Positions 22,836 through 27,092 of a stretch of 64,000 nt of DNA are shown in pieces. The notes under the pieces are model-generated. The model was not told where the DNA came from. It did not search any database and was given only the letters and a program-made list of their open reading frames with translations. The translations under genes were made by a program, and so were the position numbers. Source of the DNA: Halothermothrix orenii H 168 (lineage in GTDB: Bacteria; Bacillota; Halanaerobiia; Halanaerobiales; Halothermotrichaceae); the NCBI RefSeq assembly GCF_000020485.1, contig NC_011899.1, forward strand, positions 1,334,501 through 1,398,500, read 5' to 3'. The stretch's first letter is position 1, and the number at the start of each line of letters is the position of its first letter.

Positions 22836-23261
22836 TTATTGTGCCCTGAATCTAAAACCCATCATTATGTCCTGGATATTTTCACCCTCTTCCTCTGTCA
22901 TCTTCCATCTAATCCCGGCTCTAAATTCGGGAAAAATTGTGTATTCTAAACCAAGGACAAAGGTATTATTATTATCATTAAATTTTCCGGAACAGTTAAC
23001 ATTCCAGTTATTATATTTTATACTACCACCGAGGTTTATATAAGAACCTGGCATAAATTTTTCCCGGTTAATATCCAGAGATAATGGAAATATTGAAGCT
23101 TTTAATTTTGCTTTATTAAAAATGGTTTCATCATAAAGTCCCCAGTATACCCGGGTTTTTTTATAATTATCATATTCCACATAATTGCTAAAATATAAAC
23201 TATCTAACAATAATAAATCCAAACCAAGGGAAATCCTCCCGGTCTTTTCACCTCTTTCCAC
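22836..23261 (-). CDS. Barrel-like C-terminal part of a secreted protein split by a -1 frame change
   Basis: A 141-residue reading frame rich in alternating beta strands (GSYINLGGSIKYNNWNVNCSG, FVLGLEYTIFPEFRAGIRW), ending in GFRFRAQ. This resembles the last strands of an outer-membrane barrel, although the final residue is not the usual Phe or Trp. The listed GTG start has no good ribosome binding site. The frame stays open upstream to 23426 and reads PSVKFLNKRELNIFF before it, so this is probably the C-terminal half of the protein at 23357-24097, reached by a -1 shift at the A7 tract. Joined length would be 420 residues. Confidence 0.6.
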   Translation of the reverse strand: MERGEKTGRISLGLDLLLLDSLYFSNYVEYDNYKKTRVYWGLYDETIFNKAKLKASIFPLSLDINREKFMPGSYINLGGSIKYNNWNVNCSGKFNDNNNTFVLGLEYTIFPEFRAGIRWKMTEEEGENIQDIMMGFRFRAQ

Positions 23262-23355
23262 TGACCCATAAATTCTTCTGTTACCTCCCCGCTCTACATC
23301 GATTATAACATCATCACTGTTAAAAAATATATTTAATTCTCTTTTATTTAGAAAC

Positions 23356-23383
23356 TTTACAGAAGGTTTTTTTCTTCTGTAAA
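23356..23383 (-). other. Candidate frameshift or slippage site A AAA AAC inside a hairpin
   Basis: In the mRNA sense, GAA GAA AAA AAC CTT CTG TAA ends the upstream frame; the heptamer A AAA AAC is in the correct phase for a -1 slip, which continues into CCT TCT GTA AAG and the barrel-like frame. The tract A7 is at 23367-23373. A perfect ten-base inverted repeat (TTTACAGAAG and CTTCTGTAAA) encloses it with an eight-base loop, and its 3' arm contains the zero-frame stop. Confidence 0.75.
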
Positions 23384-24097
23384 AATATTGTTCAATGTGG
23401 AGACATTCCCGAGAAGTACAGTCGATTTATCGGTTATTCTGCCTACTTCAATCATTTTAGCTGTTGCATACAGGACTACAAATTTTAATGAATCATTATC
23501 CTCCCTCTTAACCATTAAAAAAACGGGTCTTCTGGTTGTCGGAGTTAAGGATTTAATAGTTTTAATTCTAGAAACCATATCTCTATACTGTATTGAAAAA
23601 TATATTTCGGTTATTATCTTTTTTTGTGAAGTAATTAATTGTTCAGGGACAAGTTTTATTTTAACGGTATTTTCTTTAGTATTAATCATACCATGATTTA
23701 TGTCTTCTATTTTAAACACTACTGGTCTGTCTTCAAGGGTAACCAGGTAAATATCTTGATAATAAAAGCGATGAACCTCAGAATTATTTACATTAATTAT
23801 ATGATTTACTCCCATTAATTCCATTAATTCCGGGTCAGATATAATTACCCAGCCTTTATCAGAAATTTTTTTATTGATATTAACACTGATATCAATATTC
23901 TGTTCAGATTGGTTATTAAATTCAACAAATTTCAATATATATAGTACATTTTCCTGATTTACACTAACTTCTGTATTATTATTTATTTGATTAGAATCTT
24001 GCTTATATTCTATCTTACCACTGGCCTGGACAGGGAGTCCAGCCAGTAATATTATCAGGAAACTTAAAGCAACAACAAAAACCCTGCTATCTATCAT
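23357..24097 (-). CDS. Secreted beta-rich protein of the secretin operon, N-terminal part
   Basis: Signal peptide (residues about 1-26, VFVVALSFLIILLAGLPVQAS) followed by a 220-residue beta-rich region with no family I recognise. It begins with Asn-rich sequence, and the mid part reads QDIYLVTLEDRPVVFKIEDI and KNTVKIKLVPEQL-like strands. The strong AGGAGGA site lies seven bases before the ATG. The zero frame stops nine bases after an A7 tract; the -1 frame continues for 176 residues into a barrel-like domain. It directly follows the secretin gene, so it may be an outer-membrane partner of the secretin. Function is inferred from context only. Confidence 0.65.
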   Translation of the reverse strand: MIDSRVFVVALSFLIILLAGLPVQASGKIEYKQDSNQINNNTEVSVNQENVLYILKFVEFNNQSEQNIDISVNINKKISDKGWVIISDPELMELMGVNHIINVNNSEVHRFYYQDIYLVTLEDRPVVFKIEDINHGMINTKENTVKIKLVPEQLITSQKKIITEIYFSIQYRDMVSRIKTIKSLTPTTRRPVFLMVKREDNDSLKFVVLYATAKMIEVGRITDKSTVLLGNVSTLNNIFTEEKNLL

Positions 24098-24109
24098 ATA
24101 ACTGTCCTC

Positions 24110-25267
24110 CTACTTAATTGTTGGAGTCACAAATATTAATAATTCTCTATCTCCGGTATCATTTACTTTTTTGGTAAAAAGCCATCTTAATAAAGGAATT
24201 TTATTTAATCCAGGTACAGACTTTTTATAATTATAATCATCCTGTAAAGTCATACCGGCTATAACCGCTGTCTGACCACTTGCTACCCTGACTGTAGTAT
24301 CAAGTGTGTTTTCTCTAACTGCTATTTCAGGTAATTTAGAATTTACGAAATGGCTTATTGAAGGTGAGAAATCAAGTATCATTTCATCTTTAGAAATTAA
24401 CCTGGGGGTTACTTTTAAAGAAATACCCACTTTAATATCTTTAAAGTACTCTATTTCCTCATCCTCTGTAATAAATAAGGTCTGTTTTTCTCCAATGAAT
24501 AACTCCGCTGGCTCTCCATCCATGACGACAATACTGGGGTCAGCATGTATTTTAGCCTTTTCCTCTTCCTGTAAAATTTCAAGTCTGGTCAACAAATTTT
24601 CGAATATATTACCATTTAAAACCAGTGATGACCCATCATATTTTAAGTTTAAAGATGGATTATCCTTTTCCCGATATTCAAGAAAACCTGTCCCCAGTTT
24701 TTTGAGTTCTTTTGTTGAAACTTCACTGACTACTACTGTAATTTTAATCTGTTTTCTAGGTTTATCAATCCTCTTAATAAGATTAATTATTTTTTCCATC
24801 TTTGTCGGCGGTGCAGAAATAGATAACATGTCTCCTTTATGGTTTCCATAAACATAATCTTTAAGGTGGGGAGGAAGTATTGATAATACTGTGCTGACAG
24901 ATACATTCTCCAGGTCAACAATCCTGGTATTGATCAGGTCACCAAAATTCCGACTCCCGGGGTCAGCCAGTCCAACCAGATAATAGTTATCCTTATGGTA
25001 AAAGGTATAACCCCCACCAGATAATATTATTTCCAGAGCCTTTTCCAGGGGAACATTATTTAAATCTGCCGTAACAACACCCTCTACTGTATAATCAGGT
25101 ATAATATTTACTCCCGTTTGCAGTGAAATTTCATTGAGGGCTTCCCGTAATGGTGTCTCATAAAACACAATTGTAACCCGGGGTTGACTTTCATCTGCCA
25201 GCAGCACCCCAGTGGTGATTAACAAAAAAATTAATACTAAAACATTAATCCTGATAGACCTGTCCAT
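24110..25267 (-). CDS. Stand-alone outer-membrane secretin
   Basis: Signal peptide 1-24, then an STN/N0-like domain (TIVFYETPLREALNEISLQTGVNI, residues 29-95), one N1-type repeat (RIVDLENVSVSTVLSILPPHL, DMLSISAPPTKMEKIINLIKRIDKP) and the secretin domain, roughly 230-385, with EEEKAKIHADPSIVVMDGEPAELFIG, ASGQTAVIAGMT and the closing VPGLNKIPLLRWLFT...RELLIFVTPTI. At 385 residues it is shorter than type II or type IV pilus secretins (fewer N domains). No ATPase, inner-membrane platform or prepilin peptidase is encoded nearby. A secretin implies an outer membrane. Confidence 0.9.
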   Translation of the reverse strand: MDRSIRINVLVLIFLLITTGVLLADESQPRVTIVFYETPLREALNEISLQTGVNIIPDYTVEGVVTADLNNVPLEKALEIILSGGGYTFYHKDNYYLVGLADPGSRNFGDLINTRIVDLENVSVSTVLSILPPHLKDYVYGNHKGDMLSISAPPTKMEKIINLIKRIDKPRKQIKITVVVSEVSTKELKKLGTGFLEYREKDNPSLNLKYDGSSLVLNGNIFENLLTRLEILQEEEKAKIHADPSIVVMDGEPAELFIGEKQTLFITEDEEIEYFKDIKVGISLKVTPRLISKDEMILDFSPSISHFVNSKLPEIAVRENTLDTTVRVASGQTAVIAGMTLQDDYNYKKSVPGLNKIPLLRWLFTKKVNDTGDRELLIFVTPTIK

Positions 25268-25292
25268 AAGTGTACCCCCTGTTTTCGTCTTT

Positions 25293-25709
25293 TTATTTAA
25301 TAACCCTGATAGAAACAGGTATCTCCTTCTTTTTTATTACTTTTTCTTCTTTATATACTGTAAATATTAAATTTCCCTGCAACCTGTCTTTATCATTATT
25401 TCGTGGCACTTTAAAGGCCACCAATAACCTTCCCTTTTGATAACCTGATAATCTAATATTGTTATTAATAATATCTATCCATGGTTTTAAATCAGGGTTC
25501 TTACAGTTCAGCAGTACCTGAGCAGCAAGATTATTTTTGAGTTTAAAAACCATTGTTTTTCTCTGACCACCATGAAGCTTTATATTTATCCTGTTGGGTT
25601 TTATAATAACACCCTTATCCTTAACAGTGGAATATAAAAAGTCACCCTTTTTTATTTCTATATCCCGGGTTTTAATAACCCGGACATGTTTCCCTATTTT
25701 TAAAAACAC
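25293..25709 (-). CDS. C-terminal Ig-like part of the PapD-like chaperone, split by a -1 frame change
   Basis: 138 residues from a GTG with no clear ribosome binding site. It starts in the middle of a beta strand; upstream in frame it reads RLAAGTYQIR, which completes the GTY-x-I-R-V motif common near the end of PapD-like secreted domains. Residues 40-138 look like a further Ig-like domain (VIIKPNRINIKLHGGQRKTMVFKLKNN). The frame opens only at 25760, just before the A7 tract in the end of the upstream gene, so it is best read as the C-terminal part of a 391-residue protein. Confidence 0.62.
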   Translation of the reverse strand: MFLKIGKHVRVIKTRDIEIKKGDFLYSTVKDKGVIIKPNRINIKLHGGQRKTMVFKLKNNLAAQVLLNCKNPDLKPWIDIINNNIRLSGYQKGRLLVAFKVPRNNDKDRLQGNLIFTVYKEEKVIKKKEIPVSIRVIK

Positions 25710-25714
25710 CCGAA

Positions 25715-25751
25715 TCTGATAGGTACCTGCCGCTAATCTTTTTTTATCAGA
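25715..25751 (-). other. Candidate frameshift or slippage site A AAA AAA inside an inverted repeat
   Basis: In the mRNA sense the upstream gene ends CTG ATA AAA AAA GAT TAG. A -1 slip on the in-phase heptamer A AAA AAA continues into AGA TTA GCG GCA GGT ACC, the frame of the downstream part. The A7 tract is 25739-25745. A seven-base inverted repeat TCTGATA/TATCAGA encloses the site, and AGGT lies a few bases upstream. Confidence 0.72.
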
Positions 25752-26467
25752 CCTGTAATCTTAATAATACTAACGGGATAAACCCTTATGGTAGTATAGT
25801 TTGTCTTTTCAAGTGCCGGACTAATAAGTTTTACCCTGTCTACCAGCCTGTTATTACTGTCTCTAATGGTAGCTTCTCCTGACAGGACACAATCCAGCAA
25901 TGAAGGATTTTTTACATGTACAACCATCCTGGGAAGACCCTCATTATTTTTTCTTAAATCTATATCAAGTATTTTGACCTGAGGTCTAAGCCCCGGGGTT
26001 TTTACCCTGATATTAATCCGGACAGCATACTGAATAACATACTGAAGACCACTTTTATTTTCCTTCCTGGTCCGTAACATAAGAACTACTGTTTTGGTCC
26101 CCCGGGCCTGTAAGGGGACTTTTACTTTTCCTCTGATAACTTTTTTATGCCCGGGGTGTAATATAATTTTTCTTTTATCCAGCTTTACCCATTGAGCCGG
26201 TTCATAACTGTTTAAATCCTGTATTTTACGGTAATTTAAAGACCCATCTATTAGCTGAACTAATTGATATAGAGATACATTTACTTTTTCCTCATGTTTA
26301 TCTGCCGTCAAAACAATCTGGAAGTCTCTTTCCGCCCCCGGTTTGGCTTCAAGGTTTATCACCATTGGAGATACACCGGCTGATTCAACATTATAATTTA
26401 TTAAAACCGCAGATATTAAAGATAAAAAGATACAAATAAATACCTTCCTGAGAAATTTCAAGGTCAA
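25733..26467 (-). CDS. PapD-like periplasmic chaperone, N-terminal part
   Basis: Signal peptide about 1-30, then a PapD-type first domain at residues 31-130 (AGVSPMVINLEAKPGAERDFQIVLTA opening, QWVKLDKRKIILHPGHKKVIRGKVKVP, KTVVLMLRTR). A second Ig-like domain follows from about 133 (PQVKILDIDLRKNNEGLPRMVVHVKNPS). The zero frame ends within that domain, four bases after an A7 tract; the -1 frame supplies the missing strands. The start is TTG (a second TTG is two codons later) behind GGTGGTGACAGG. Such chaperones normally serve usher pathways, but a secretin gene follows here instead. Confidence 0.72.
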   Translation of the reverse strand: MTLKFLRKVFICIFLSLISAVLINYNVESAGVSPMVINLEAKPGAERDFQIVLTADKHEEKVNVSLYQLVQLIDGSLNYRKIQDLNSYEPAQWVKLDKRKIILHPGHKKVIRGKVKVPLQARGTKTVVLMLRTRKENKSGLQYVIQYAVRINIRVKTPGLRPQVKILDIDLRKNNEGLPRMVVHVKNPSLLDCVLSGEATIRDSNNRLVDRVKLISPALEKTNYTTIRVYPVSIIKITGLIKKD

Positions 26468-26491
26468 AATCCTGTCACCACCTTTTTTATT

Positions 26492-26528
26492 AGAAGAAGG
26501 AGGTGTTTATCTGTAACCTCCTTCTTCT
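26492..26528 (-). other. Strong hairpin between the pilin-like and chaperone genes
   Basis: A perfect twelve-base-pair stem (AGAAGAAGGAGG and CCTCCTTCTTCT) with a thirteen-base loop, 16 bases after the stop of the pilin-like gene. On the minus strand it is followed by AATAAAAAAGG, not a T-tract, so it is not a standard terminator. It could act as a 3' stabiliser or partial terminator that raises the amount of pilin-like mRNA over the assembly genes, as in known fimbrial operons. One arm contains an AAGGAGG sequence that it would mask. Confidence 0.7.
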
Positions 26529-26543
26529 TATAAAATTACCCGA

Positions 26544-27092
26544 TCAGTCTACCGGAGGAGCTGAAATTGTAAAAACTACATTTCCTTTGTAAGTACCCGG
26601 GGTTACTTCCCACCAGCCATTATCTGTTGAATCCCACTCTACGCCTTCTTTACTCCATTGTGGTAAAGTCATAGTTACATCAAAAAAATGAACCCCTGGA
26701 TCATCAATATCTATTGTCTTTACAATACTATTCCTAGAATCCAGGGTAAAATCATTATCGGTAGTTCCAGACATAAAATCGAGGGTAAAATCAAGTTCTT
26801 CACCGGTTACTGTATTAACCAACTTACCGAACCGAGCGGTAATAGTCACATTACCATTGGTACGAACCCTTATCTTACCCTCATACAGTTCACTGTTATA
26901 GTCGGGGTCAGCAGTTTCAATTTTAACTGGAACCCCACCATCCATTACGCAGATTTCTCCATAGGTTCCTATTTTTGCCTCTAACCCCAGGGTACTGGTA
27001 CCACCTGAAGTGCTGGCAGCCTGAATGACAAGGGACAAACCAAACAACATTGTCAAACTTAATACCACAGTAAAAATTCTTTTCATGGACAT
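26544..27092 (-). CDS. Secreted pilin-like beta-sandwich protein
   Basis: 182 residues with a signal peptide cut near VIQAAS|TSGG. The mature part is acidic and beta-rich with a single cysteine in the mature chain, and ends GTYKGNVVFTISAPPVD. The GTY-x(4)-V-x-x-T-I ending is like the last strand of spore-coat-U, CS1 and WxL-type sandwich proteins, which suits chaperone-guided subunit assembly. It is the first gene of the operon, with a very good AGGAGG site. I do not recognise a named family. The leader has a six-base TGCAGC/GCTGCA repeat (27116-27148). Confidence 0.68.
   Translation of the reverse strand: MSMKRIFTVVLSLTMLFGLSLVIQAASTSGGTSTLGLEAKIGTYGEICVMDGGVPVKIETADPDYNSELYEGKIRVRTNGNVTITARFGKLVNTVTGEELDFTLDFMSGTTDNDFTLDSRNSIVKTIDIDDPGVHFFDVTMTLPQWSKEGVEWDSTDNGWWEVTPGTYKGNVVFTISAPPVD

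Follow-up and report, generated by a model that had tools for sequence, protein, structure and literature searches.

On the minus strand of Halothermothrix orenii, a thermohalophilic diderm Firmicute (PMC2626281), two overlapping reading frames meet at the heptamer A AAA AAC, and the question is whether ribosomes are programmed to slip there or whether the DNA carries a broken gene. All coordinates without a locus prefix refer to the window, the whole 64,000-nt stretch of DNA that was analysed, which is part of a genome assembled as one contig of 2,578,146 bp. A preliminary description of the locus had proposed that a slip sets a ratio between two products.

Read directly, the first frame runs from an ATG at 24097 to a TAA at 23357-23359 (N half, 23357..24097, minus strand, 246 codons). 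Its end reads GAA GAA AAA AAC CTT CTG TAA, so the stop falls three codons past the heptamer. The in-phase heptamer (23366..23372, minus strand) sits in an A7 run and in the frame overlap, and the frame probably broke at the A7 run itself (23367..23373, minus strand). From approximately 23426 onwards the -1 frame is open, and its stop is at 22836-22838, which gives a C half of 177 codons plus stop (22836..23369, minus strand); the peptide ASIFPLSLDINR is an example from this half. The overlapping frames are as first described, and so is the joined product of 420 residues after a -1 slip, 177 of which lie past the slip rather than the 176 originally given. The C half is genuinely coding, and chance does not explain it: its score against a profile of the relatives built without H. 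orenii is 27.5 bits, and the highest among 500 shuffles is 7.3. The coding signal is equal in the two halves (0.17 in each), and no second stop or frameshift interrupts the C half. No ATG, GTG or TTG occurs in the -1 frame between the start of the overlap and 90 nts past the stop, which makes re-initiation of a useful product unlikely, and we rejected re-initiation at the C half for this absence of a nearby start codon.

The two frames are, by sequence comparison, the N and C halves of one gene, as had been proposed. A search with the N half among 100 relatives finds homologues in 5 genomes, each in one open frame of 417-454 codons. A class-wide profile search finds homologues in 11 other genomes, and a draw across the phylum gives matches, full-length or partial, in 11 genomes of other classes. 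The family profile holds 13 class members from 11 genomes, one of which, at 546 codons, is an outlier extended at its N-terminus. The N half matches profile positions 14-259 and the C half positions 264-429, which are adjoining segments; these positions come from a first version of the profile that also held a mis-picked ORF (L025), later dropped. The single-frame orthologues span both halves continuously, and neither the 13 class homologues nor the matches in the 11 genomes elsewhere in the phylum have a frame break; one stop flagged in the phylum draw is, as the coordinates read, the gene's own terminal stop. None of the 13 class homologues has an A_AAA_AAN heptamer at the junction, and the A7 run is absent at that place in the relatives; a few homologues have A_AAA_AAN elsewhere in the gene with the frame unchanged. 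Intact single frames lacking the heptamer at the junction are the very result that the preliminary description had named as pointing away from a programmed slip. The joined reading frame is thus real as ancestry, which does not imply that it is expressed.

Predicted structures place the frame break in a linker between two domains. The N half begins with a signal peptide, identified by eye (...LAGLPVQA|SG). Past the junction, AlphaFold2 run on the -1 part aligned with its relatives predicts 12 strands forming a barrel (pLDDT 90.7, pTM 0.81), and the same 12 strands recur at the C-terminus in the model of a full-length relative (mean pLDDT 73.6). The barrel of that relative matches the KdgM and NanC porins with Z about 17 (VIA-align), and Foldseek matches them too. 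The models confidently predict a closed 12-strand antiparallel outer-membrane beta-barrel for the C domain, and the whole protein is likely an outer-membrane protein, in agreement with the first reading of the locus. For the N domain, the structure search was made within the model of the full-length relative, where residues 52-241 match the secretin cores of InvG and GspD (Z 9.2-9.8, rmsd 5.3-5.4 A). A profile-profile comparison with the neighbouring secretins (hhalign) covers 184 columns with E 4e-5 and a probability of 70%, and the Pfam Secretin model PF00263 has no match in the N domain. The N domain looks like a degenerate secretin domain, and we take this as a strong lead. A 540-aa family member (L058:8246-9865, minus strand) has retained an extension at its N-terminus and is similar to the H. 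orenii secretin (phmmer 1e-10); it is possibly an intermediate between a secretin and the barrel fusion.

The split gene belongs to an operon on the minus strand that runs from a pilin-like subunit through a chaperone and a short secretin to the split barrel gene. The secreted pilin-like subunit (26544..27092) is intact and has homologues in the operons of relatives, and the short secretin (24110..25267; STN, Secretin_N and Secretin domains, Pfam PF00263 4.3e-34) is also intact. The chaperone gene is itself split. Its N half has 244 codons (25733..26467) and matches profile positions 7-244 of homologues of approximately 510 aa; its C half is in the -1 frame (25293..25741) and matches positions 243-406. 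The junction reads ATA AAA AAA GAT TAG, where a second A7 run (25739..25745), also in phase as A AAA AAA, precedes GAT TAG and carries a -1 break 2.4 kb from the first one. Read through the junction, the chaperone aligns to its relatives without a gap, and the relatives have it as a single protein, usually close to 510 residues long within a range of about 430-540. It has weak similarity to WxL-interacting proteins. The operon is conserved in diderm Firmicutes (22836-27092, minus strand, in the window; L046-L058 in relatives), where it occurs in two gene orders and is made of a short secretin, the secretin-like-barrel fusion, pilin-like subunits and the approximately 510-aa chaperone. We found no description of this operon in the literature. 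It may be an undescribed chaperone-plus-secretin surface-fibre system. It is the more interesting by-product of this analysis, and deserves more attention than the heptamer.

The heptamer by itself is mildly unusual. In a 464-kb sample of the genome, an in-phase A_AAA_AAC occurs in 0.6% of 23-codon windows, A_AAA_AAN in 5.2%, and some X_XXY_YYZ heptamer in 16%. Counted over 1068 intact ORFs, an in-phase A_AAA_AAC occurs 99 times, and there are 565 A7 runs. Since an in-phase A_AAA_AAN accompanies 58% of A7 runs, a frame break at an A7 run yields an in-phase heptamer more often than not, and the tempting claim of recoding is corrected accordingly: a break at A7 brings such a heptamer with it in more than half of cases. 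In E. coli, A_AA.A_AA.G ranks with the most efficient frameshift motifs, and AAAAAAA is under-represented, possibly from slippage or from indel mutation (PMC4066793).

Signals that would stimulate a frameshift are missing around the run. The 74 nts downstream fold at -5.0 kcal/mol against -8.1 for shuffles (z +1.27, folding without pseudoknots), and there is no Shine-Dalgarno-like sequence 10-15 nts upstream, in ACAATATTTTTACAGAAG. A larger region folds better than shuffles (z -3.0), and much of this is due to an inverted repeat, perfect over 10 bp, with the A7 run between its arms, TTTACAGAAG-AAAAAAAC-CTTCTGTAAA (23356..23383, minus strand). Such hairpins are rare inside ORFs, with 9 cases in the 464-kb sample. 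We rejected the hairpin as a frameshift stimulator because the slip run is in its loop, and a ribosome decoding the run would have opened it; we also rejected it as a repeat element since it occurs only once in the genome. Inverted repeats of this kind promote replication errors, and the one here is possibly a mutation hotspot or the product of a fold-back insertion. The perfect repeat, together with a linker that exceeds that of the relatives by 2-4 residues, hints at a fold-back (template-switch) insertion of 11 nts. The profile scores do not mark it out as the origin of the shift (114.2 bits for the slip, 117.4 for the removal of 11 nts and 119.2 for the removal of 5 nts), and we keep it only as a possible mutation route.

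The breaks extend beyond this operon. We sampled 1.26 Mb of the genome, about half of it, for frames whose stop lies within a coding frame of the same strand that lacks a start signal. Five further splits appear, all -1 at runs of A6-A9: CorA (L077:13497), YetF/DUF421 (L090:15281), a methyltransferase (L099:13313), MscS (L075:6499) and an ABC transporter (L104:6379). Pfam matches to both halves confirm all but MscS, which is less sure, with a Pfam match on the N half only and an MscS-like motif seen by eye in the C half. Together with the two operon genes, the seven breaks are all -1, none is +1, and three of the runs are A6 and three A7. The genes of the five are unrelated to the operon, and they and the chaperone share the lesion at runs in slippery phase and at runs outside it. 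The slippery phase is found in four of the seven, and 3.65 are expected from the phases of runs in intact genes. Ribosomal slipping as the cause would enrich for the slippery phase, and the lack of enrichment in this small sample argues against programming. A flavodoxin-like gene (L079:18689-19377, minus strand) seems shortened, with a -1 continuation away from any A run, and is a putative split. The published description of the genome lists 24 pseudogenes and describes a PTS Enzyme I with a frameshift (PMC2626281). Our sampling of half of this reference genome flags about seven genes with reading frames that should be resequenced.

Most probably the frame is broken in the DNA sequence itself, through mutation or a base missed in the consensus, and the site is not a designed ribosomal slip. 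The explanation that we favour, to which we give an even chance of being right, is that a recent and real mutation, the loss of one base, broke an ordinary gene. The ancestor would have had one frame of approximately 420 codons encoding the signal peptide, the secretin-like domain and the 12-stranded barrel. A base would have been lost at the A run in the H. orenii lineage, in the simplest form from A8 to A7, after which translation would stop three codons later and leave a secreted stub without the barrel; the chaperone gene would have been hit by the same kind of lesion. With two genes of the operon broken, the surface system has probably ceased to work and entered early decay. What speaks against an ordinary break is that the C half is free of further lesions with a coding signal as good as that of the N half, and that a break in the linker would also suit the end of a designed stub. 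An otherwise intact C half means that the loss is very recent, or that the sequence is wrong, or that the product is still made. The main contender, credible though we hold it to be less than evenly probable, is a consensus or sequencing error in which the cell has an unbroken gene and the assembly dropped one A from an A8, both here and in the chaperone. The genome was sequenced by Sanger and 454 FLX with an error of less than 1 in 50,000 (PMC2626281), a rate that allows up to about 50 errors, and a search for a second H. orenii sequence found none, such that the break is read from one assembly. Seven breaks in half the genome fit mutation or error alike. That all seven are one base short at an A run, that both halves look fully constrained, and that housekeeping-type genes such as CorA are affected too favour an error, but the main assembly is Sanger with finishing, the three A6 runs are short, and approximately 2,100 runs of six or more As remain unbroken in the 1068 sampled ORFs. 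Two breaks in one operon are also mildly clustered (about 0.08 by chance, our own estimate), which leans to real decay, while the absence of any other lesion leans to an error or a very recent loss. On balance, the loss is more likely a real mutation than an assembly error.

Readings in which the broken frames are nevertheless expressed or switched are, all taken together, unlikely. In one, RNA polymerase slippage at the A7 run would add an A to some transcripts and so produce some full-length protein. One more A in the mRNA would indeed mend all seven breaks, all of which are on coding-strand A runs, and neither half has extra lesions; but the bias to the A strand falls short of significance (p about 0.11, with 2128 A runs and 773 T runs), and runs of six or seven As are short for slippage, which has been documented at bacterial runs of around nine As and also in endosymbionts (PMC5009743). 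At A7 the run here is shorter than the roughly 8-9 or more As or Ts that mark slippage sites; shorter runs may still slip, though less. We find this leaky rescue improbable, and give the same small chance to the wider proposal that a free-living thermophile tolerates at least seven A-run breaks because slippage at short runs restores enough protein; if true, two genes of one surface operon would be expressed across broken frames. Lower still, and very improbable, is the original idea of a programmed -1 ribosomal frameshift that sets the ratio of stub to barrel. It draws on the in-phase heptamer, the stop three codons on, and the junction between two domains, and the missing stimulator is not proof against it, since there is one proven insertion-sequence case of A_AAA_AAC with no established stimulator (PMC4066793). 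The arrangement, however, is found in no relative, the downstream and upstream signals are absent, the hairpin encloses the slip run, and the heptamer is common in intact ORFs. The least probable reading is that the length of the A run is a phase-variable contingency switch for the surface system. Two breaks at short homopolymers in one surface operon suggest it, but A7 is a short and common run, the relatives do not have it at the junction, and two separate switches would both need to be on.

Among known systems, a close parallel is offered by frameshifted genes at homopolymer runs and, in the same genome, by the PTS Enzyme I, Hore_20150: they too have one frame break, halves otherwise intact, and single-frame orthologues elsewhere. 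Enzyme I was reported as a likely pseudogene, not at a slippery site (PMC2626281), whereas the present break is at an A7 run whose phase is, by coincidence, slippery. The poly(A) slippage systems of Buchnera, Blochmannia and the Shigella type III secretion genes (PMC5009743) share with our case an A run in a surface or secretion gene and a frame that one more A in the mRNA would restore; here the run is A7, it is absent in the relatives, and the case is known from DNA alone. The programmed -1 sites of dnaX and the IS3 family are similar in having an in-phase A_AAA_AAN with a zero-frame stop soon after, but the site in H. orenii has no stimulators and no conservation, and it is in a host gene with single-frame relatives. 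As for the protein, the N domain resembles secretins such as GspD and InvG in its fit to the secretin core (Z 9.8, 133 residues, 5.4 A) and in its profile match to the neighbouring secretin; the family differs in being degenerate, with no Pfam Secretin hit, in being fused to a 12-stranded barrel, and in that most members are without STN/N domains. The barrel has the 12-stranded fold of the KdgM and NanC porins (Z 17.5, 154 residues, 2.7 A) at about 11% identity, and here a secretin-like domain precedes it; the common fold says nothing about function.
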